Shown piece by piece: positions 5,854 to 14,571 of a stretch of DNA of 64,000 bases (position 1 is its first letter; each line of letters begins with the position of its first letter). The notes beneath the pieces are model-generated. The model saw only the letters and a list, made by a program, of their open reading frames with translations. It was not told the origin of the DNA and did no database searches. Made by a program: the position numbers and the translations under genes. This DNA comes from Actinotalea solisilvae (GTDB taxonomy: Bacteria; Actinomycetota; Actinomycetes; Actinomycetales; Cellulomonadaceae): NCBI RefSeq assembly GCF_016464425.1, contig NZ_JADDKQ010000010.1, positions 186,001 to 250,000 on the forward strand, read 5' to 3'.

Positions 5854-7058
5854 TGGGGGCACCCGCGCCCGAGCCGGGTCCCCGGCCGTCGCGGGGCCGG
5901 GTGGGCCGGCAGCTCGCGGACCAGCCGACGACGGCCGGTGTCGTCACGGCGGTCGTGGGGTTCACGAGCGCGTTCGCCGTCGTCCTCGCCGGGCTGCGCG
6001 CGGTGGGCGCCGACGCCGCCCAGGCGTCGTCGGGCCTCCTCGCGGTCACCGTGCTCATGGGGCTCGCGACGGTGCTCCTCGCGTGGCGCACCCGGCTGCC
6101 GATCACGGTCGCGTGGTCGACGCCGGGCGCCGCGCTGCTGGCGACCACCGGCACGGTCGACGGCGGCTGGCCCGCGGCCGTCGGCGCGTTCGCGCTGTGC
6201 GGGGTGCTGCTCGCGGCCGTCGGGCTCGTGACGCCGCTGGCGGACCTCGTGCGCCGGATCCCCGCCCCGCTCGCCTCGGCGATGCTCGCGGGCGTGCTGC
6301 TCGACCTGTGCCTCGCGCCCGTGCGCGGCCTGGCCGACGCACCCGCCCTCGTCGCGCCCGTGGTCGTCGTGTGGGCGGCGCTGCTGCGGCTCGCACCGCG
6401 GTGGGCCGCGCCGGCGGCGCTCCTCGCGGCGGCCGTGCTCGCCCTCACCTCGGACGACGTCCGCGCGCTCGGCCCCGAGTCGTGGGCGCCGAGCCTCGTG
6501 TGGACCACGCCGACCCTCACGCCCGCGGCCGTCGTCTCCGTCGCGATCCCCCTGTTCGTCGTGACGATGGCGTCGCAGAACCTCCCCGGCGTCGCCGTGC
6601 TCGCCGGGTTCGGGTACGCGCCGCCCCTGCGCCCGGTCCTGCTCACGACGGGCCTCGGCACCGTGGTCGGCGCTCCGTTCGGCGGGCACGCGATCAACCT
6701 CGCCGCGATCAGCGCCGCGCTCGCGGCCGGACCCGAGGCCGGCCCGGACCCGCGGCGGCGCTGGCGGGCCGCGGTCACGGCCGGCGCCGGCTACGTCGTC
6801 CTGGGTCTCGGGTCCGCCGGCGTCGCCGCGATCGCCCTGGCCGCACCCGGCGGGCTCATCGAGGCCGCGGCCGGGCTCGCTCTCGTCGCGACCCTCGCCG
6901 GGGCCCTGCGCGCCGCGTCCACGGCCGAGCAGCCCGTCGCCGCGGCCGTGACGTTCCTCGTGACCGCGTCGGGGCTCCAGCTCGCGGGCGTGGGCTCGGC
7001 GTTCTGGGGTCTGGTCGCCGGTCTCGTGCTGCACGGCGTCCTCCGCCGCCGGCCCTGA
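5853..7058 (+). CDS. BenE/YdcO-family transporter (benzoate/H+ symporter-like)
   Basis: 401 residues with about 12 membrane segments. Family hallmarks include the N-terminal [18 protein letters not shown], the [10 protein letters not shown] segment, and the conserved block [17 protein letters not shown] followed by [17 protein letters not shown]. BenE proteins are proton-coupled importers of benzoate and related aromatic acids, but most members are untested, so the substrate is open. The GTG start shares one base with the stop of the previous gene; co-transcription with the WXG-like module is therefore likely. No aromatic-degradation genes are nearby. Confidence 0.88.
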
Positions 7059-7069
7059 CCGCGCCCGGC

Positions 7070-7089
7070 GGCGAGACGACCGTCTCGCC
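7070..7089. promoter_or_regulatory. 20-bp perfect palindrome after benE
   Basis: GGCGAGACG and CGTCTCGCC flank an AC centre, 12 bases after the benE stop and 24 bases before a -35-like TTGCAC. With an effective 8-bp stem and 4-base loop it could be the benE terminator. Because it is symmetrical and immediately upstream of the sulfur-operon promoter, it could also be a repressor operator for that operon. Confidence 0.45.
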
Positions 7090-7112
7090 ATGTGGCACGA
7101 GCGGGCAGTTCC

Positions 7113-7142
7113 TTGCACGCGCAACCACCACGCCCCTACGCT
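7113..7142 (+). promoter_or_regulatory. Candidate promoter of the sulfonate operon
   Basis: TTGCAC (7113-7118) and TACGCT (7137-7142) with an 18-base spacer. A start site near 7149 would give a leader of about 80 bases before the Cys-rich peptide ORF. Confidence 0.45.
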
Positions 7143-7230
7143 CGCCCTGACGGTCTTGCCTGACGGAAGGCCGCGTCTCATCTGGCGATACGCGCGAGGT
7201 GGGGACCCGATCCGGGAGGGAGGCAGCGCC

Positions 7231-7344
7231 ATGCACCCGCAGCACCTGCGGCGTCCGACGGACCACGTCCGCGACGTGATGATGGCGCTCCCGATGCCCT
7301 CCGGCTGTGGCTGCTGTCCCTGCATGCCAAGCGCTGGCGCCTGA
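7231..7344 (+). CDS. Cysteine-rich leader peptide of the sulfonate operon
   Basis: A 37-residue ORF with a strong GGGAGGGAGG ribosome binding site (7213-7222). The peptide contains [11 protein letters not shown] and then GCGCCPC, four cysteines in seven codons near the 3' end, and stops at TGA 7342-7344. Short leader peptides with an N-terminal Arg/His-Val part and clustered Cys codons precede sulfur-assimilation operons in many actinomycetes, where ribosome stalling at Cys codons is thought to sense cysteine supply. The 154 bases before ssuB contain a potential stem (7432-7439 with 7458-7465). The peptide is probably regulatory rather than functional; the mechanism here is inference. Confidence 0.75.
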
Positions 7345-7431
7345 CGAGCCGCCTCCCCCTCGGAGCCGCCTCGCACGGTCCGACGACGTACCTCGGTCGC
7401 CAGCGCTCGCCCCAGCCCGTCCGCCCGCTCT

Positions 7432-7465
7432 GACGAGCGCGCGCCGGAGCGAGCCCACGCTCGTC
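7432..7465 (+). promoter_or_regulatory. Potential attenuator stem before ssuB
   Basis: GACGAGCG (7432-7439) pairs perfectly with CGCTCGTC (7458-7465) across an 18-base loop, 33 bases upstream of the ssuB start and about 90 bases after the leader-peptide stop. It could be the switching stem of a cysteine attenuator; competing structures cannot be resolved by eye. Confidence 0.3.
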
Positions 7466-7498
7466 CGGCTGCCGCCCGTGGACCCCCGAGGACCCCCC

Positions 7499-8353
7499 AT
7501 GGCGATCACCGCCCCCACGACCGTGCGCTCCCACCCCGCCCACCCCGTCTCCGTGCGCGGCGTCGGGCGCACCTTCGCGCCGCGCGACCGCGGCGGCCGC
7601 GCCAAGGCCGTGCTGGCCGACGTCGACCTCGAGATCGCCGCGGGCGAGATCGTGGCCCTCATCGGGGCGTCCGGCTGCGGCAAGTCCACGCTGCTGCGCC
7701 AGGTGAGCGGCCTCGACGCCCCGACGGCGGGCCGGATCCTCATCGACGGCCGGCCCGTGGACGGCGTGGACGACCGGTGCGCCGTCGCCTTCCAGGAGCC
7801 CCGCCTCCTGCCGTGGCGCACCCTCGCGCAGAACGTCCGCATCGGCCTGCCGCGCGGCACGGACCGGTCGACCGGCGACCAGCGCGTCACCGAGCTGCTC
7901 GAGCTCGTCGGTCTCGGCGAGTGCACGGGCTACCGCCCGCGCCAGATCTCGGGCGGCATGGCGCAGCGCACCTCGCTCGCCCGGGCCCTCGCCCGCAACC
8001 CGGGCGTCCTCGTGCTCGACGAGCCGTTCGGTGCGCTCGACGCCCTCACCCGCCTCAAGATGCAGGACCTCCTGCTCGAGGTGCACGCCGCCGAGCCCAC
8101 GACGGTGCTGCTCGTCACGCACGACGTCGACGAGGCCCTCTACCTCGCCGACCGTGTGGTCCTGCTGGGCCGCCCCGAGGGTGCGCCGACGTCGGCCCCG
8201 GCGGGCGTGCGCAGCGTCGTCACGGTCCCGGGCGAGCGCCCGCGGGACCGCGCCGACGCGCGCCTCGCGCTGCTGCGCGCGTCCCTGCTCGAAGGCCTCG
8301 GGGTCGCGACCCACCACGTCGCGCACGACCCGGACACCCACCACTCGATCTGA
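7499..8353 (+). CDS. ssuB: Aliphatic sulfonate ABC transporter, ATP-binding protein
   Basis: 284 residues. Walker A is GASGCGKST, the Q-loop lies in [12 protein letters not shown], the signature is ISGGMAQR and Walker B is [12 protein letters not shown], followed by the switch histidine in [11 protein letters not shown]. The PRLLPWRT segment and overall sequence fit the nitrate/sulfonate/taurine ATPase group (SsuB/TauB). It drives import of organosulfonates through the SsuC permease. The start at 7499 removes a proline-rich upstream extension. It lies directly behind the Cys leader peptide, which supports a sulfur rather than nitrate substrate. Confidence 0.88.
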
Positions 8354-8470: not shown

Positions 8471-9526
8471 ATGAGAATCCGCACCGCTTGGTCCGTCACC
8501 GCGACGTCGCTCGCCGCCGCCCTGATGCTCGGCGGGTGCGCGGCCGGCGAGGGCTCCGCGACCGTCGAGGAGGCCCCCGAGCCCGCCGCCACGGCCGCGG
8601 GCGAGGAGGGCTGGAGCGACGACGTCCTCAACATCGACTTCGCGACCTACAACCCGCTGAGCCTCATCATCAAGGACCAGGGCTGGCTCGAGGCCACCCT
8701 CGGCGACGACGTCACGGTGAACTGGGTCCAGTCGGCCGGCTCGAACAAGGCCAACGAGGCGCTGCGCGCCGGCGCGGTCGACGTCGGCTCCACGGCCGGG
8801 TCCGCCGCGCTGCTCGCGAAGGCCAACGGCTCGCCCATCCACACGATCGGCATCTACACCCAGCCCGAGTGGGCCGCGATCGTCGTCCCCGCGGGCTCGG
8901 ACATCACGTCGGTCGAGCAGCTCGCGGGCCGCTCGGTCGCCGCGACCAAGGGCACGGACCCGTACTTCTTCCTCCTGCAGTCGCTGGAGGAGCACGGCGT
9001 CGCGCTCGGCGACGTCGAGGTGCAGAACCTCCAGCACGCCGACGGCAAGGCCGCGCTCGAGTCCGGCGCGGTCGACGCGTGGTCCGGCCTCGACCCGCTC
9101 ATGGCCGCGAGCGAGGCGACCGCGGGCTCGCAGCTCATCTACCGCAACATCGACTTCAACACCTACGGCTTCCTCAACGCGACGCAGGAGTTCATCGAGA
9201 GCAACCCGGACCTCGCGCAGGTCGTCCTCGACGCGTACGAGAAGGCCCGCGCATGGGCGGTCGAGAACCCCGAGGAGACGGCGGCGATCCTCGCCGAGGT
9301 CGCGGCGATCGACCCCGCGGTCGCCGAGAAGGTCATCCTCGAGCGCACGAACCTCGAGGTCGACGTCGTGCCGGGTGACGCCCAGCGCGAGGTGCTCGAG
9401 GTCGTCGGGCCGATCTTCGTGGAGTCGGGCGACGTGACGTCGCAGGACCTCATCGACACCGCGCTCGACGAGCTCTTCGACCCGCAGTTCGCCGAGGCCG
9501 CGGACCCGTCGTCGATCACCGAGTGA
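8471..9526 (+). CDS. ssuA: Sulfonate ABC transporter, substrate-binding lipoprotein
   Basis: 351 residues with a lipoprotein signal peptide: basic start MRIRTAW, hydrophobic core and lipobox LGGC with the modified Cys at 23. The mature part has the SsuA/TauA periplasmic-binding fold, with phrases such as GAVDVGSTAGSAALLAKANGS and LAGRSVAATKGTDPYFFLL typical of sulfonate/nitrate binders. It captures the substrate outside the membrane for SsuBC. AGGAGA lies 6-7 bases before the ATG. A large hairpin follows the stop, which may raise its expression relative to the permease. Confidence 0.88.
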   Translation: MRIRTAWSVTATSLAAALMLGGCAAGEGSATVEEAPEPAATAAGEEGWSDDVLNIDFATYNPLSLIIKDQGWLEATLGDDVTVNWVQSAGSNKANEALRAGAVDVGSTAGSAALLAKANGSPIHTIGIYTQPEWAAIVVPAGSDITSVEQLAGRSVAATKGTDPYFFLLQSLEEHGVALGDVEVQNLQHADGKAALESGAVDAWSGLDPLMAASEATAGSQLIYRNIDFNTYGFLNATQEFIESNPDLAQVVLDAYEKARAWAVENPEETAAILAEVAAIDPAVAEKVILERTNLEVDVVPGDAQREVLEVVGPIFVESGDVTSQDLIDTALDELFDPQFAEAADPSSITE

Positions 9527-9612: not shown

Positions 9613-10557
9613 ATGAGCATTCTCGGGAGCACCGGCACCGGACCGGTCGTCGACCGGCACGGGAATCCGCTGCGCGCGCTCAACCCGTTCGACTCCCGCG
9701 CGGAGGAGCCGTCGGACGACGTCGTGCCGGTGGCGGACGAGCAGGTGCCGGCACCCGCCGACGACGTCGTCGCGCCGCGTTCTTCCCGCTTCTCGGGCCG
9801 CCGCGCGGGTCGGCTCGCGCTCTCCCTCGTCGTGCCGGCGCTGCTGCTCGTCGCGTGGCACGTCGCGACGGCGGTCACGGGCACGTTCGCGCCGTACGAG
9901 CTGCCCTCCCCCGGCTCGGTCGTCACGGCGGCCGTCGAGCTCGCGACCTTCGAGAACGGCCCCAACTTCTTCGAGCACATCCAGATCTCGGTCCAGCGCG
10001 TCCTCATCGGCTTCACGATCGGCTCGCTCGTCGGCCTCGCCGTGGGCGCGCTCGTGGGCCTCTCTCGGCTCGCCGACACGCTCCTCGCGGGCACCATCGG
10101 CGCCGTCCGCGCCGTCCCGTCGCTCGGCTGGGTCCCCCTGCTCGTCCTGTGGATCGGCATCAACGAGGACTCCAAGGTGCTCCTCGTCGCCATCGGCGCG
10201 TTCTTCCCCGTCTACACGACGGTCGCCTCGGCCCTGCGCCACGTCGACCCGCAGCTCGTCGAGGCCGGCCGCGCCTACGGCCTGCGCGGCACGTCGCTGC
10301 TGCTGCGCGTCCAGCTGCCCGCGGCGACGCCCGCCGTCGTCTCGGGCCTGCGCCTCGCGCTCGCCCAGTCGTGGCTCTTCCTCGTCGCGGCCGAGCTCAT
10401 CGCGTCGTCGATGGGCCTCGGCTTCCTGCTCACCGACTCGGCCAACAACGGCCGCGTCGACCGCATCCTGCTGTCGCTCGTCACCCTCGCGGTGCTGGGC
10501 AAGCTGACCGACGCCCTCATCGGCGTCGTCGAGAAGAGGCTCCTGCGCCGGTGGTGA
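9613..10557 (+). CDS. ssuC: Sulfonate ABC transporter permease
   Basis: 314 residues from ATG 9613, with AAGGAG upstream. The first 60 residues are hydrophilic and Pro/Asp-rich; about six membrane helices follow. The EAA loop (EAGRAYGLRGTSLLLRVQLPAATPAVVSGLRLAL) that contacts the ATPase is clear, and the fold matches BPD-type inner-membrane permeases of the SsuC/TauC group. It forms the channel for SsuA-delivered sulfonate. Its stop overlaps the next start (GTGA). Confidence 0.88.
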   Translation: MSILGSTGTGPVVDRHGNPLRALNPFDSRAEEPSDDVVPVADEQVPAPADDVVAPRSSRFSGRRAGRLALSLVVPALLLVAWHVATAVTGTFAPYELPSPGSVVTAAVELATFENGPNFFEHIQISVQRVLIGFTIGSLVGLAVGALVGLSRLADTLLAGTIGAVRAVPSLGWVPLLVLWIGINEDSKVLLVAIGAFFPVYTTVASALRHVDPQLVEAGRAYGLRGTSLLLRVQLPAATPAVVSGLRLALAQSWLFLVAAELIASSMGLGFLLTDSANNGRVDRILLSLVTLAVLGKLTDALIGVVEKRLLRRW

Positions 10558-12665
10558 CCACACCCGACACGTCCCCCCCGTCCGCCGTCGAGGCCGCCCC
10601 CGGCGGTCCCGCCATCACGAACCTGCTCACCGAGCACCGCACGTTCCCGGCCCCCGCCCACCTCGCCGCGAGCGCGAACGTCGGCCCCGCCGAGGCCGCG
10701 CGCCTGCGCGCCGAGGCCGACGCCGACCACGTCGCGTTCTGGGAGCGCGCCGCCGAGCGCCTCGAGTGGGCCGAGCCGTGGCACACCGCGCACACGTGGT
10801 CGCCCGCGGTCCCCCGTGACGACGACCCGGACGAGCTCACGGTCCCCGAGGCGACCTGGTTCGCGGGCGGCCGCCTCAACGTCGCCGTCAACTGCGTCGA
10901 CCGGCACGTCGCGGCCGGCCGCGGCGACAAGGTCGCCCTGCACTTCGAGGGCGAGCCCGGCGACCGCCGCACGGTCACCTACGCCGACCTGCAGCGCGAG
11001 GTCTCGCGGGCCGCCCACGCGCTCACGGCGCTCGGCGTCGGCAAGGGCGATCGCGTCGTCGTCTACCTGCCCGTCCTCGTCGAGACGGTCGTCATCACGC
11101 TCGCCATCGCACGCATCGGCGCGATCCACTCGCTCGTCTTCGGCGGCTTCTCGGCCGAGGCCGTCCGGTTCCGCGTCCAGGACACGGGCGCCACGCTCGT
11201 CGTCACGTCCGACGGCCAGTTCCGCCGCGGCGTCGCCGTCCCCACCAAGGCGTCCGCCGACGCCGCCGTCGCCGGGCTCGACCACGTCGAGCACGTGCTC
11301 GTCGTGCGCCGCACGGGCGACCTCACGCCCGACGTCCCGTGGACGCCAGGGCGGGACGTGTGGTGGCACGACGTCGTCGACACCGCGCCCGACGTGCACG
11401 AGGCCGAGGCGTTCGACGCCGAGACGCCGCTGTTCGTCATGTACACGTCCGGCACCACGGGCAAGCCCAAGGGCCTCGTGCACACCGCGGGCGGCTACCT
11501 CACGCAGGCGGCCTGGACGCACTGGGCGGTCTTCGACGTGCGCGACGACGACGTGCACTGGTGCACCGCGGACCTCGCCTGGGTCACCGCGCACACCTAC
11601 GAGATCTACGGCCCGCTCGCCAACGGCGTCACCCAGGTCATCTACGAGGGCACGCCGAGCACGCCGCACCCGGGCAGGCACTGGGAGATCATCGAGCGCT
11701 ACGGCGTCACGACGTACTACACGGCGCCCACCCTCATCCGGACGTTCATGACGTGGTTCCCCGACGGCCTGCCGGCCACGTGGGACCTGTCGAGCCTGCG
11801 GCTGCTCGGGACGGTCGGCGAGTCCATCAACCCCGAGGCGTGGGTCTGGTTCCACGAGCAGGTCGGCGGCGGCCGCGCGCCGATCGTCGACACGTGGTGG
11901 CAGTCCGAGACCGGCGCCGCGATGGTCGCTCCCCTGCCAGGCGTCACGACGCTCAAGCCGGGCTCGGCGACGCGGCCGCTGCCGGGCATCTCCGCGAAGG
12001 TCGTCGACGATCACGGCGTCGAGGTCGCGCCCGGCCAGGGCGGCTTCCTCGTCGTGGACCGCACGTGGCCGGGCATGGCCCGGACGGTCTGGGGCGACGC
12101 CGAGCGGTTCCGCGACGCCTACTGGGCCCGGTTCGCCGCGCAGGGCTACTACTTCGCCGGCGACGGCGCGCGCTACGACGCCGACGGCGACATCTGGCTG
12201 CTCGGCCGCGTCGACGACGTCATCAACGTCTCGGGCCACCGCCTGTCGACCATCGAGATCGAGAGCGCGCTCGTGTCCCACCCGCTCGTCGGCGAGGCCG
12301 GCGTCGCGGGGGTCGAGGACGCCACCACGGGCCAGGCGATCGCCGCGTTCGTCATCCCCGCGCGCGCCCCGGCCGCGCCCGACGACGCCGCGGCGTGGGT
12401 CGCGCACGCACTCGAGCTCACGCAGACCCTGCGCGCGCACGTCGCGCGCGAGATCGGGCCCATCGCCAAGCCGCGCGACGTCGTCGTCGTGCCCGACCTG
12501 CCCAAGACGCGGTCGGGCAAGATCATGCGGCGCCTGCTCGCCGATCTCGTCACCGGGGGAAGCCTGGGCGACGTCACGTCGTTGCAGGACGCAGGTGCCC
12601 TCACCAGGATCCAGGCCGTGCTCGCCAGCCGTGCCGCCGCCCACCCGAAGGAGACCGTGTCGTGA
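10554..12665 (+). CDS. Acetyl-CoA synthetase-like acyl-CoA ligase
   Basis: 703 residues, GTG start overlapping the ssuC stop. It belongs to the ANL superfamily: ACAS_N region (residues about 20-95), AMP-binding core with MYTSGTTGKPKGLVH, the WWQSETGAAM motif, and the C-terminal domain with acetylation-type lysine in PKTRSGKIMRR. It activates a short carboxylic acid, most likely acetate, to an acyl-CoA through an acyl-adenylate. The N-terminus is some 40 residues longer than standard Acs. Its place between sulfonate import and MetY is unusual: it could supply acetyl-CoA for O-acetylserine or O-acetylhomoserine, or activate the carbon skeleton left after desulfonation. Confidence 0.88.
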   Translation: MTTPDTSPPSAVEAAPGGPAITNLLTEHRTFPAPAHLAASANVGPAEAARLRAEADADHVAFWERAAERLEWAEPWHTAHTWSPAVPRDDDPDELTVPEATWFAGGRLNVAVNCVDRHVAAGRGDKVALHFEGEPGDRRTVTYADLQREVSRAAHALTALGVGKGDRVVVYLPVLVETVVITLAIARIGAIHSLVFGGFSAEAVRFRVQDTGATLVVTSDGQFRRGVAVPTKASADAAVAGLDHVEHVLVVRRTGDLTPDVPWTPGRDVWWHDVVDTAPDVHEAEAFDAETPLFVMYTSGTTGKPKGLVHTAGGYLTQAAWTHWAVFDVRDDDVHWCTADLAWVTAHTYEIYGPLANGVTQVIYEGTPSTPHPGRHWEIIERYGVTTYYTAPTLIRTFMTWFPDGLPATWDLSSLRLLGTVGESINPEAWVWFHEQVGGGRAPIVDTWWQSETGAAMVAPLPGVTTLKPGSATRPLPGISAKVVDDHGVEVAPGQGGFLVVDRTWPGMARTVWGDAERFRDAYWARFAAQGYYFAGDGARYDADGDIWLLGRVDDVINVSGHRLSTIEIESALVSHPLVGEAGVAGVEDATTGQAIAAFVIPARAPAAPDDAAAWVAHALELTQTLRAHVAREIGPIAKPRDVVVVPDLPKTRSGKIMRRLLADLVTGGSLGDVTSLQDAGALTRIQAVLASRAAAHPKETVS

Positions 12666-14023
12666 CCGAGACCACCGGGACGGGCGACCGCCGCTGGGGC
12701 TTCCGCACCCGCGCGCTGCACGCGGGCGGCGTCCCCGACGCGACCACGGGCGCGCGCGCCGTGCCGATCTACCAGACGACCTCGTTCGTGTTCAACGACA
12801 CCGCGGACGCGGCGAACCTCTTCGCGCTGCAGAAGTACGGCAACATCTACTCGCGCATCGGCAACCCGACGGTCGCTGCGCTCGAGGAGCGCATCGCGTC
12901 GCTCGAGGGCGGCATCGGCGCGGTGGCGACCGCGTCGGGCATGTCGGCCGAGTTCATCACCTTCGCGGCGCTCGTCGGTGCGGGCGACCACGTCGTCGCG
13001 GCGGCCTCGCTCTACGGCGGCACCGTGACCCAGCTCGACGTCACGCTGCGCCGCTTCGGCGTCGAGACCACGTTCGTGCCCGGCACCGACCCGGCCGACT
13101 ACGCCGCGGCGATCCGCCCCGAGACCAAGGTCGTCTACGCCGAGGTCGTCGCGAACCCCTCGGGCGAGGTCACCGACATCGCGGGACTGGCCGAGGTCGC
13201 CCACGCGGCCGGTGTGCCGCTCGTCATCGACGCGACGCTCGCGACGCCGTACCTGTGCCGGCCGATCGAGCACGGCGCGGACATCGTCATCCACTCGGTC
13301 ACCAAGTTCCTCGGCGGCCACGGCACCACGCTGGGCGGCGTCGTCGTCGAGAGCGGCCGGTTCGACTGGGGCAACGGGCGCTTCCCCCAGATGACCGAGC
13401 CCGTCGCGTCCTACGGCGGCGTCTCGTGGTGGGAGAACTTCGGCGAGTACGGGTTCCTCACCAAGCTGCGCTCGGAGCAGCTGCGCGACATCGGCCCCGC
13501 GCTCTCGCCGCAGTCCGCGTTCAACCTGCTCCAGGGCGTCGAGACGCTCCCCCAGCGGCTCGACGCGCACCTCGCCAACGCTCGGGCCGTCGCCGCGTGG
13601 CTCGAGGCGGACCCGCGCGTCGGCTACGTCAACTGGGCCGGTCTGCCGAGCCACCCGCACCACGAGCGCGCGGCGCAGTACCTGCCGGCGGGCCCGGGCT
13701 CGGTCTTCGCGTTCGGCGTGCGCGGCACGCCCGACGTGCCGGGGCGCGACGCCGGCCGCCGGTTCATCGAGGCGCTCCAGCTCGCGAGCCACCTCGCGAA
13801 CATCGGCGACTCCCGCACGCTCGTCATCCACCCGGGGTCGACGACGCACCAGCAGCTCTCGGCCGAGCAGCTCGCCGCGGCGGGCGTGCCCGAGGACCTG
13901 GTGCGCATCAGCGTCGGGCTCGAGGACGTCGAGGACATCCTCTGGGACCTCGACCAGGCGCTCACGGCCGCCGTCGGCCCCGCCGACGCCGTCGTCCCCA
14001 CCGCAGCGGAGGTCCTGGCATGA
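12662..14023 (+). CDS. metY: O-acetylhomoserine sulfhydrylase
   Basis: 453 residues, GTG start overlapping the previous stop, with AAGGAG upstream. It is a gamma-family PLP enzyme of Cys/Met metabolism: FRTRALHAGG at the N-terminus, YSRIGNPTVAALEERIASLEGG, and the PLP lysine K215 in HSVTKFLGGHGTTLGG. The long YGGVSWWENFGEYGFLTKLR insertion is typical of MetY rather than MetB or MetZ. It makes homocysteine directly from O-acetylhomoserine and sulfide. Coupling with sulfonate uptake links an organosulfur source to methionine synthesis. Confidence 0.93.
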   Translation: MTETTGTGDRRWGFRTRALHAGGVPDATTGARAVPIYQTTSFVFNDTADAANLFALQKYGNIYSRIGNPTVAALEERIASLEGGIGAVATASGMSAEFITFAALVGAGDHVVAAASLYGGTVTQLDVTLRRFGVETTFVPGTDPADYAAAIRPETKVVYAEVVANPSGEVTDIAGLAEVAHAAGVPLVIDATLATPYLCRPIEHGADIVIHSVTKFLGGHGTTLGGVVVESGRFDWGNGRFPQMTEPVASYGGVSWWENFGEYGFLTKLRSEQLRDIGPALSPQSAFNLLQGVETLPQRLDAHLANARAVAAWLEADPRVGYVNWAGLPSHPHHERAAQYLPAGPGSVFAFGVRGTPDVPGRDAGRRFIEALQLASHLANIGDSRTLVIHPGSTTHQQLSAEQLAAAGVPEDLVRISVGLEDVEDILWDLDQALTAAVGPADAVVPTAAEVLA

Positions 14024-14571
14024 GCTTCATCGCACCCGTGACGACGGTCGGCGCGGGCGACGCGTGCGCCGTGCCGACTCAGGTGCCGACCGGCCGCACC
14101 TGGGTGGGCCCGAGCGCGACCGAGCGGCTCGCGATCCTGCGCCGGACCAAGTCCATCGCGATCGTCGGCGCCTCGGCGAACGCGTCGCGCGCGAGCTACT
14201 TCGTCGCGACCTACCTGCTCTCGTCCTCGCCGTACGACGTGTACTTCGTCAACCCGCGCGCGACCGAGATCCTGGGCCGGCCCGTCTACCCGTCGCTCGA
14301 GGCGCTGCCCGTGGTCCCCGACCTGGTCGACGTGTTCCGCCGGCACGACGACCTGCCGACCGTGCTCGACGAGACGCTGGCCGTCGGCGCGCGCACGCTC
14401 TGGCTGCAGCTGGGCTCGTGGCACGAGGACGTCGCGCGCCGCGGCGAGGAGGCCGGGCTCGAGGTCGTCATGGACCGCTGCGTGAAGATCGAGCACGCCC
14501 GGTTCCACGGGGGCCTGCACCTCGCCGGCTTCGACACGGGCGTCATCAGCTCGAGGCGCGCGCTGGGCTGA
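14020..14571 (+). CDS. CoA-binding (YccU-type) protein
   Basis: 183 residues, ATG overlapping the metY stop (ATGA). The Rossmann-like CoA-binding domain is seen in SIAIVGASANASRASYFVATYLL, YFVNPRATEILGRPVYPSLEALP and VDVFRRHDDLPTVLDETLAVGARTLWLQLGS; the late segment VMDRCVKIEHARFHG is diagnostic of the YccU group. The function is unknown; CoA-binding proteins of this group often follow metY in actinomycetes, suggesting a role in sulfur or acyl-CoA metabolism. The stop codon lies in the first copy of a 21-bp tandem duplication. Confidence 0.85.
   Translation: MSFIAPVTTVGAGDACAVPTQVPTGRTWVGPSATERLAILRRTKSIAIVGASANASRASYFVATYLLSSSPYDVYFVNPRATEILGRPVYPSLEALPVVPDLVDVFRRHDDLPTVLDETLAVGARTLWLQLGSWHEDVARRGEEAGLEVVMDRCVKIEHARFHGGLHLAGFDTGVISSRRALG

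Follow-up and report, generated by a model that had tools for sequence, protein, structure and literature searches.

The data presented here make it probable that the DNA in front of the ssuBAC-acs-metY operon of Actinotalea solisilvae functions as a cysteine-sensing leader-peptide attenuator. Cysteine-sensing attenuation had been put forward in a preliminary description of the window (the whole stretch of DNA analysed, 64,000 nucleotides in length). It draws support from a Cys codon kept at one position before a helix, from co-variation within that helix and from enrichment of the rare codon TGT – features expected of ribosome-mediated attenuation, on which account we favour it. The leader and its candidate 5′ signals are as follows.

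7113-7142, plus strand: likely promoter of the leader, TTGCAC (7113-7118), 18 nt, TACGCT (7137-7142), with conserved TTGC and CTA blocks recognised by eye
7214-7223, plus strand: GGGAGGGAGG, the leader's Shine-Dalgarno site, with 7 nt between it and the ATG; a purine-rich block in relatives
7231-7344, plus strand: leader ORF, 37 codons, ATG to TGA
7306 (TGT), 7312 (TGC), 7315 (TGT) and 7321 (TGC), plus strand: Cys codons of the leader

The earlier account of a 37-codon ORF with an excellent ribosome binding site is borne out by the Shine-Dalgarno site and its 7-nt spacing, and the motif GCGCCPC that it placed near the end of the ORF occupies codons 25-31. An in-frame ATG at 7090 would lengthen the ORF to 84 residues; we prefer the start at 7231 because relatives keep both this ATG (GTG in one) and the purine-rich block, which in alignments precedes a conserved AGCGCC-ATG. 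The Shine-Dalgarno site and this conservation together suggest that the leader is translated. The promoter-like elements and conserved blocks upstream suggest that the 5′ UTR is probably some 80 nt long; a promoter scan returned no site at its threshold. Among ORFs of 8-55 codons led by a Shine-Dalgarno site and carrying at least three Cys within 8 codons, the leader is the only one on either strand of the window. A look for further Cys leaders in the genome at six loci, beside PALP-family genes and the single palindrome site, gave two ORFs with three Cys each, both on the minus strand.

The ORF was said to lie directly upstream of ssuBAC-acs-metY, and indeed ssuB begins 154 nt downstream of it on the same strand. 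The operon is arranged thus.

7488-7501, plus strand: Shine-Dalgarno site GAGGA (7488-7492) and start codon (7499-7501) of ssuB, a possible target of masking
7499-8353, plus strand: ssuB-like ABC ATPase, first gene of the operon (Pfam ABC_tran; below the cut-offs of NCBIfam equivalogs)
8471-9526, plus strand: ssuA-like substrate-binding protein (TIGR01728, 210.2 bits, cut-off 163.5)
9613-10557, plus strand: ssuC-like permease (Pfam BPD_transp_1; best NCBIfam model below its cut-off)
10554-12665, plus strand: acs, acetate-CoA ligase (TIGR02188, 836.3 bits, cut-off 724.95)
12662-14023, plus strand: metY, O-acetylhomoserine sulfhydrylase (TIGR01326, 581.2 bits, cut-off 495.1)
14020-14571, plus strand: CoA-binding protein (PF13380), at the same place in the gene order of the six relatives compared

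SsuB and SsuC are thus assigned at the level of the family, whereas SsuA, Acs and MetY exceed NCBIfam cut-offs. The designation of the operon as one for sulfonates stands in part: the transporter genes match the expected families, but no SsuD (TIGR03565) exceeds the cut-off in the genome, the best match reaching 63.6 bits against 518.2, a cut-off exceeded in only 2 of 14 control genomes. PF01507 (PAPS/APS reductase, CysD) has no match in this genome and is matched in all 14 control genomes; sulfite/nitrite reductases are matched three times. It is possible that the organism depends on sulfur in reduced or organic form. As a separate matter, contigs C6/C41, C3/C29 and C9/C24 of this assembly (G000) give paired matches with identical scores and the same open-frame or match details; such pairs, together with a listed contamination of 8.17%, raise the possibility of duplicated stretches.

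Lack of conservation among relatives had been named in the preliminary description as a finding that would count against attenuation; the ORF, its Cys cluster and its position before ssuB are kept in the window's genus, and exist in diverged form in other genera of the family. When the leader was first used as a query, four genomes of the genus matched clearly and others more weakly. In six relatives, picked because that search had matched them, the leader, ssuB, ssuA, ssuC, acs, metY and the gene for the CoA-binding protein stand in the same order. SsuA is present in 74 of 221 genomes of the family; from these 74, 67 loci were taken and 7 left, and of the 67, 63 had an upstream region that could be read and four did not. 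At least three Cys within 8 codons, near the stop of an ORF before ssuB, were found in the sense direction in 40 of the 63 readable regions and in the antisense direction in 1 of 61. Candidate leaders were assigned in 62 loci; in two (L026 and L138) the best-scoring ORF in the table of 63 regions belongs to another frame and is not the leader.

Much the same emerges from 80 named loci, partly drawn from the same genomes as the unnamed ones, of which 30 of family type and 42 others were used (the remaining 8 lacked ssuB or offered too little sequence upstream of it). A Cys-rich ORF led by a Shine-Dalgarno site lies within 320 nt of ssuB in 19 of the 30 family-type loci, against a background elsewhere in these loci (467 kb) of 0.26 per 10 kb of strand; in other families such an ORF is found near ssuB in 2 of the 42. 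One locus, L099 (WNZI01000008.1), is titled Vibrio cholerae 35D and carries an Arthrobacter-like ssuA locus with 68% identity to the query; it is probably a mislabelled or contaminated assembly.

The nature of the conserved entity is a central issue. Outside the Cys cluster the peptide differs greatly from locus to locus – MCRCCPCCVMQPRTGPC, SCRMRQCAGM and CGCMPRAGA are examples – and the number of Cys varies widely. What is held in common lies largely in the RNA, in a predicted fold built upon the last codons of the leader.

7330-7339 with inner 7341-7344 (stop codon 7342-7344 included), plus strand: 5′ arm of helix P1
7345-7373, plus strand: predicted hairpin P2, directly after the stop codon
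7377-7382 with 7387-7392, plus strand: hairpin P3, one mismatch in the window
7398-7407 with inner 7393-7396, plus strand: 3′ arm of helix P1

The potential stem noted earlier before ssuB can be identified with P1, in which 7330-7339 pairs with 7398-7407. In 43 segments, kept because their 3′ arm showed any of a small set of motifs, this arm starts 15-61 nt after the leader stop; in many folds the P1 loop contains a pair of hairpins, of which P2 lies next to the stop codon and P3 ahead of the 3′ arm. A hairpin at the place of P2 is predicted in many relatives, its sequence not being conserved, and P3 stays paired while its sequence changes from clade to clade.

Further evidence on P1 comes from 39 anchored loci, 35 of them non-redundant, for which possession of the 5′ core was the sole criterion of choice; of the 62 loci, 23 have no such core and were excluded. 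A downstream complement to the 8-nt core, G-U allowed, is present in 29 of the 35 leaders, against a mean of 2.1 and a maximum of 5 in 60 rounds of shuffling. Exchange of 7-nt cores between loci, with Watson-Crick pairing only, gives a partner for GCGCTGG in 7 of 8 of its own loci and in none of 27 others, and for GCACCGG in 17 of 18 of its own and 3 of 17 others; the core GCGCCGG finds its partner in only 2 of 9 of its own loci and 1 of 26 others, its own rising to 5 of 9 when the 8-nt core with G-U is used. Tested one locus at a time, the duplex finds weak support: against 100 shuffles it ranks fifth or better in 18 of 62 loci.

Alignment tells a similar story. Twenty-five of the 43 segments, some trimmed at their ends, were aligned; 199 of 200 cells of P1 pair, a value owed in part to the choice of sequences, and two pairs change on both sides, from A-U to G-C and from C-G to U-A. 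Sliding one arm lowers pairing to 26-50%. In 12 sequences of the genus, P1 and P3 together pair in 88.9% of cells (27-42% in slid controls) and P3 by itself in 87.5%; some inner pairs of P1 are often broken in this genus. The covariation score for the genus does not separate the true register (0.057) from a slide of -1 (0.059), whereas the extent of pairing does (88.9% versus 41.6%).

A covariance model of the genus version, for which 12 of the 14 genus segments were used and L144 and L196 set aside, matched 14 of 44 genomes, once in each and always before ssuB. It matched 14 of the 15 genus genomes that have SsuA and none of the four that lack it; 12 of the 14 matched genomes were already in the model, the new ones being G003 and, weakly, G013 (E 0.086). 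In other genera, where the version of the leader is diverged, the model had no match. Two further leader types (L147, L149, L152, L155, L166, L177 and L178; L151, L153, L154, L158 and L167) stand before ssuB and end in CRCCRP...RAA or CCCCPQPHRPRV; they carry Cys clusters, do not have the common helix core, and their RNA may differ from the common helix.

A branched, conserved fold in front of a sulfur operon might also be read as a metabolite-binding riboswitch that overlaps an ORF by chance. This we consider extremely unlikely: loops and junctions vary in sequence between clades, and the Cys cluster, its fixed distance from the helix and the TGT bias all call for translation. Nor does Rfam recognise the fold, there being no match in the window at gathering thresholds and none in 7050-7560 at E up to 1.

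The helix also bears upon the tail of the peptide, PRAGA or PRTGP. SecM, an arrest peptide, ends in RAGP, and the resemblance invites the thought that the tail might halt the ribosome by nascent-peptide arrest of the same type. At the start of the P1 arm, however, the 35 leaders encode Arg in 21, Cys in 12, Ser in one and Gly in one; Arg is thus replaced in 14 of the 35 with the paired nucleotides unchanged, the GC of the codon being kept, and changes in the tail are compensated downstream. Because the residue varies while the pairing nucleotides stay, the tail is best read as a lookalike of a peptide motif, constrained as an RNA arm and not for its residues. An arrest peptide like SecM was rejected on this ground and on the absence of conserved C-terminal residues; we hold it to be highly improbable.

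Returning to cysteine attenuation, its most telling mark is perhaps the spacing between codon and helix. In 31 of the 35 leaders Cys occupies the fifth codon before P1 (codon -5, its first base 16 nt ahead of the arm), and the next-best Cys position is occupied in 17 of 35; in the window, codon -5 is the Cys codon at 7315. A ribosome with a codon in its A site covers some 12-13 nt further downstream, and P1 could therefore just form ahead of a ribosome waiting at codon -5. At its other extreme the 5′ arm of P1 reaches the stop codon of the leader, so that a ribosome ending the ORF would open the helix and one waiting at Cys need not. The four leaders with no Cys at codon -5 are those of G003, G006, G010 and G013. 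In these genomes (loci L137, L143, L196 and L144) one Cys or none stands between a Met-rich stretch and the kept helix core; the Cys sensor may be weakened or changed there.

Codon choice provides a further mark. In the leaders, TGT accounts for 46 of 125 Cys codons before the P1 arm, and in ssuB of 30 family loci for 3 of 60 (Fisher p 9e-7, a value to be read with caution given that the sequences are related and p-values such as this do not come from independent samples). None of the nine Cys codons in the operon genes of the window is TGT.

Densely placed Cys residues, which in many leaders show CxCC-like spacing, in an ORF that has a good Shine-Dalgarno site and is presumably translated, might alternatively denote a small functional peptide – one that binds metal or takes part in redox chemistry, or the precursor of a natural product – with the RNA fold secondary. 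We regard this as very unlikely. Sequence outside the Cys cluster is not kept between genera and the number of Cys varies widely; the conserved tail appears to be kept as RNA and not as residues; such a peptide would have no need of enriched rare TGT; and the leader peptide has no match in NCBIfam at E up to 1.

The mechanism by which cysteine attenuation would operate can be sketched as follows. Translation would begin from the Shine-Dalgarno site that the leader itself carries. If Cys-tRNA runs short, the ribosome would wait at the Cys codons, and P1, together with P2 and P3, could just form ahead of it; with ample Cys-tRNA it would go on to the stop codon within the 5′ arm and open P1, and the freed 3′ arm could then alter the RNA downstream. 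In the direction that we suppose, the operon would be on with P1 formed and off with P1 opened, the output being either a masked ssuB start or termination by Rho in the spacer before ssuB.

7408-7487, plus strand: C-rich, G-poor spacer, a possible Rho loading region

Specific masking of the ssuB start was considered and found to be unsupported. When folding was constrained by a ribosome placed at Cys or at the stop codon, this start opened less readily in 13 of 14 genus loci, and a control window lying within ssuB did so in just as many (13 of 14); in other genera the start became harder to open in 16 and easier in 8 of 29 loci. A first tally, in which opening was harder in 35 of 53 loci and easier in 10, lost its weight once the control window was used. 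With the ribosome at the stop codon, folding places the freed arm in pairs within the spacer (0.61 on average) and hardly with the ssuB start (0.04). The partner found in the spacer is no better than that in shuffled sequence in the genus (0.46 versus 0.49); in other genera it reaches 0.62 versus 0.48, with 7 of 29 loci at p 0.1 or less.

An intrinsic terminator (a hairpin followed by a T run) was not found in 7060-7560. The stretch 7342-7498 lies at the 98.7th percentile of C minus G within the window, and C minus G is positive in 43 of 43 loci; the C-rich spacer is weakly suggestive of compatibility with Rho. We offer tentatively, and as rather doubtful in its full form, a cis-regulatory RNA in which the last codons of the leader serve both as code and as helix arm, the helix stands at the mRNA entry of the ribosome while Cys is decoded, UGU tunes the length of the wait, and a Rho-dependent switch lies in the C-rich spacer. 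Were this so, the fold would belong to the sensor itself, besides its output.

The locus bears comparison with several known systems. In a trp-type attenuator, regulatory codons are followed by a helix arm that a ribosome reaching the stop codon covers. The order of elements is alike here, but a terminator hairpin with a U run is absent and the freed arm has, in the genus, no partner better than shuffled sequence provides. The locus nonetheless has what would generally be looked for in a cysteine attenuator: a short ORF with a Cys cluster before sulfur genes, translated to judge from its Shine-Dalgarno site and conservation, and a helix seemingly so placed that a ribosome at Cys or at the stop decides whether it forms.

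Closer still are the polycysteine short ORFs of mycobacteria, leaderless examples of which were reportedly described by Canestrari et al. in 2020. In such leaders a structure is reported to mask the ribosome-binding site of the next gene, stalling relieving it. Cysteine-responsive attenuation by polycysteine short ORFs has been shown in mycobacteria (PMC9031893, PMC9094748; cited in PMC13236596). Both systems have clustered Cys codons before sulfur-metabolism genes and a ribosome whose speed depends – or here would depend – on cysteine (PMC9031893, PMC9094748, PMC13236596). In contrast to the leaderless ORFs, the present leader has a Shine-Dalgarno site 7 nt before its ATG and probably the 5′ UTR of about 80 nt; its Cys codons are clustered, mostly without forming a single run; its co-varying helix extends as far as the stop codon; the distance from Cys to helix is fixed; and the operon is ssuBAC-acs-metY.

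Cys leader peptides have also been predicted for cys operons in Mycobacterium and Propionibacterium acnes and for cbs in Bifidobacterium (PMC1262725). Like the present leader, these have runs of Cys near the stop of a short ORF before actinobacterial sulfur genes and no reported terminator, Rho being the suggested output. That study describes no conserved terminator-like hairpins, whereas here a co-varying helix stands at a fixed distance from Cys, before an operon of transporter, acs and metY genes. Among the matches listed from the open-access literature, no description was found of a Cys leader of this kind in Cellulomonadaceae. What the locus adds is that co-variation reveals the sensor codon, the helix and the spacing between the two, a geometry exact enough to be tested; that a tail resembling a conserved peptide motif turns out, as the alignments suggest, to be an RNA arm; and that cysteine attenuation would extend to a transporter-acs-metY operon.

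A final question concerns the promoter. A transcription factor acting there on palindromes could be the main control, the leader being minor or decayed: palindromes resembling TCTCA-N5-TGAGA occur in many Cellulomonas-type loci, GTCTC elements occur in the window's genus, and some members of the genus have few Cys codons. Against this, most anchored leaders are strongly constrained in their pairing and in where Cys stands, and the exact palindrome TCTCA-N5-TGAGA occurs once in the genome, away from the leader promoter. As main control a transcription factor seems to us improbable to a marked degree; it may act together with the leader. Palindromes near the promoter were seen as TCTCA-N5-TGAGA between promoter and leader in L159, L160, L162 and others, and as GGCGAGACGACCGTCTCGCC at 7070-7089 in the window; they are possibly the binding site of a sulfur regulator.
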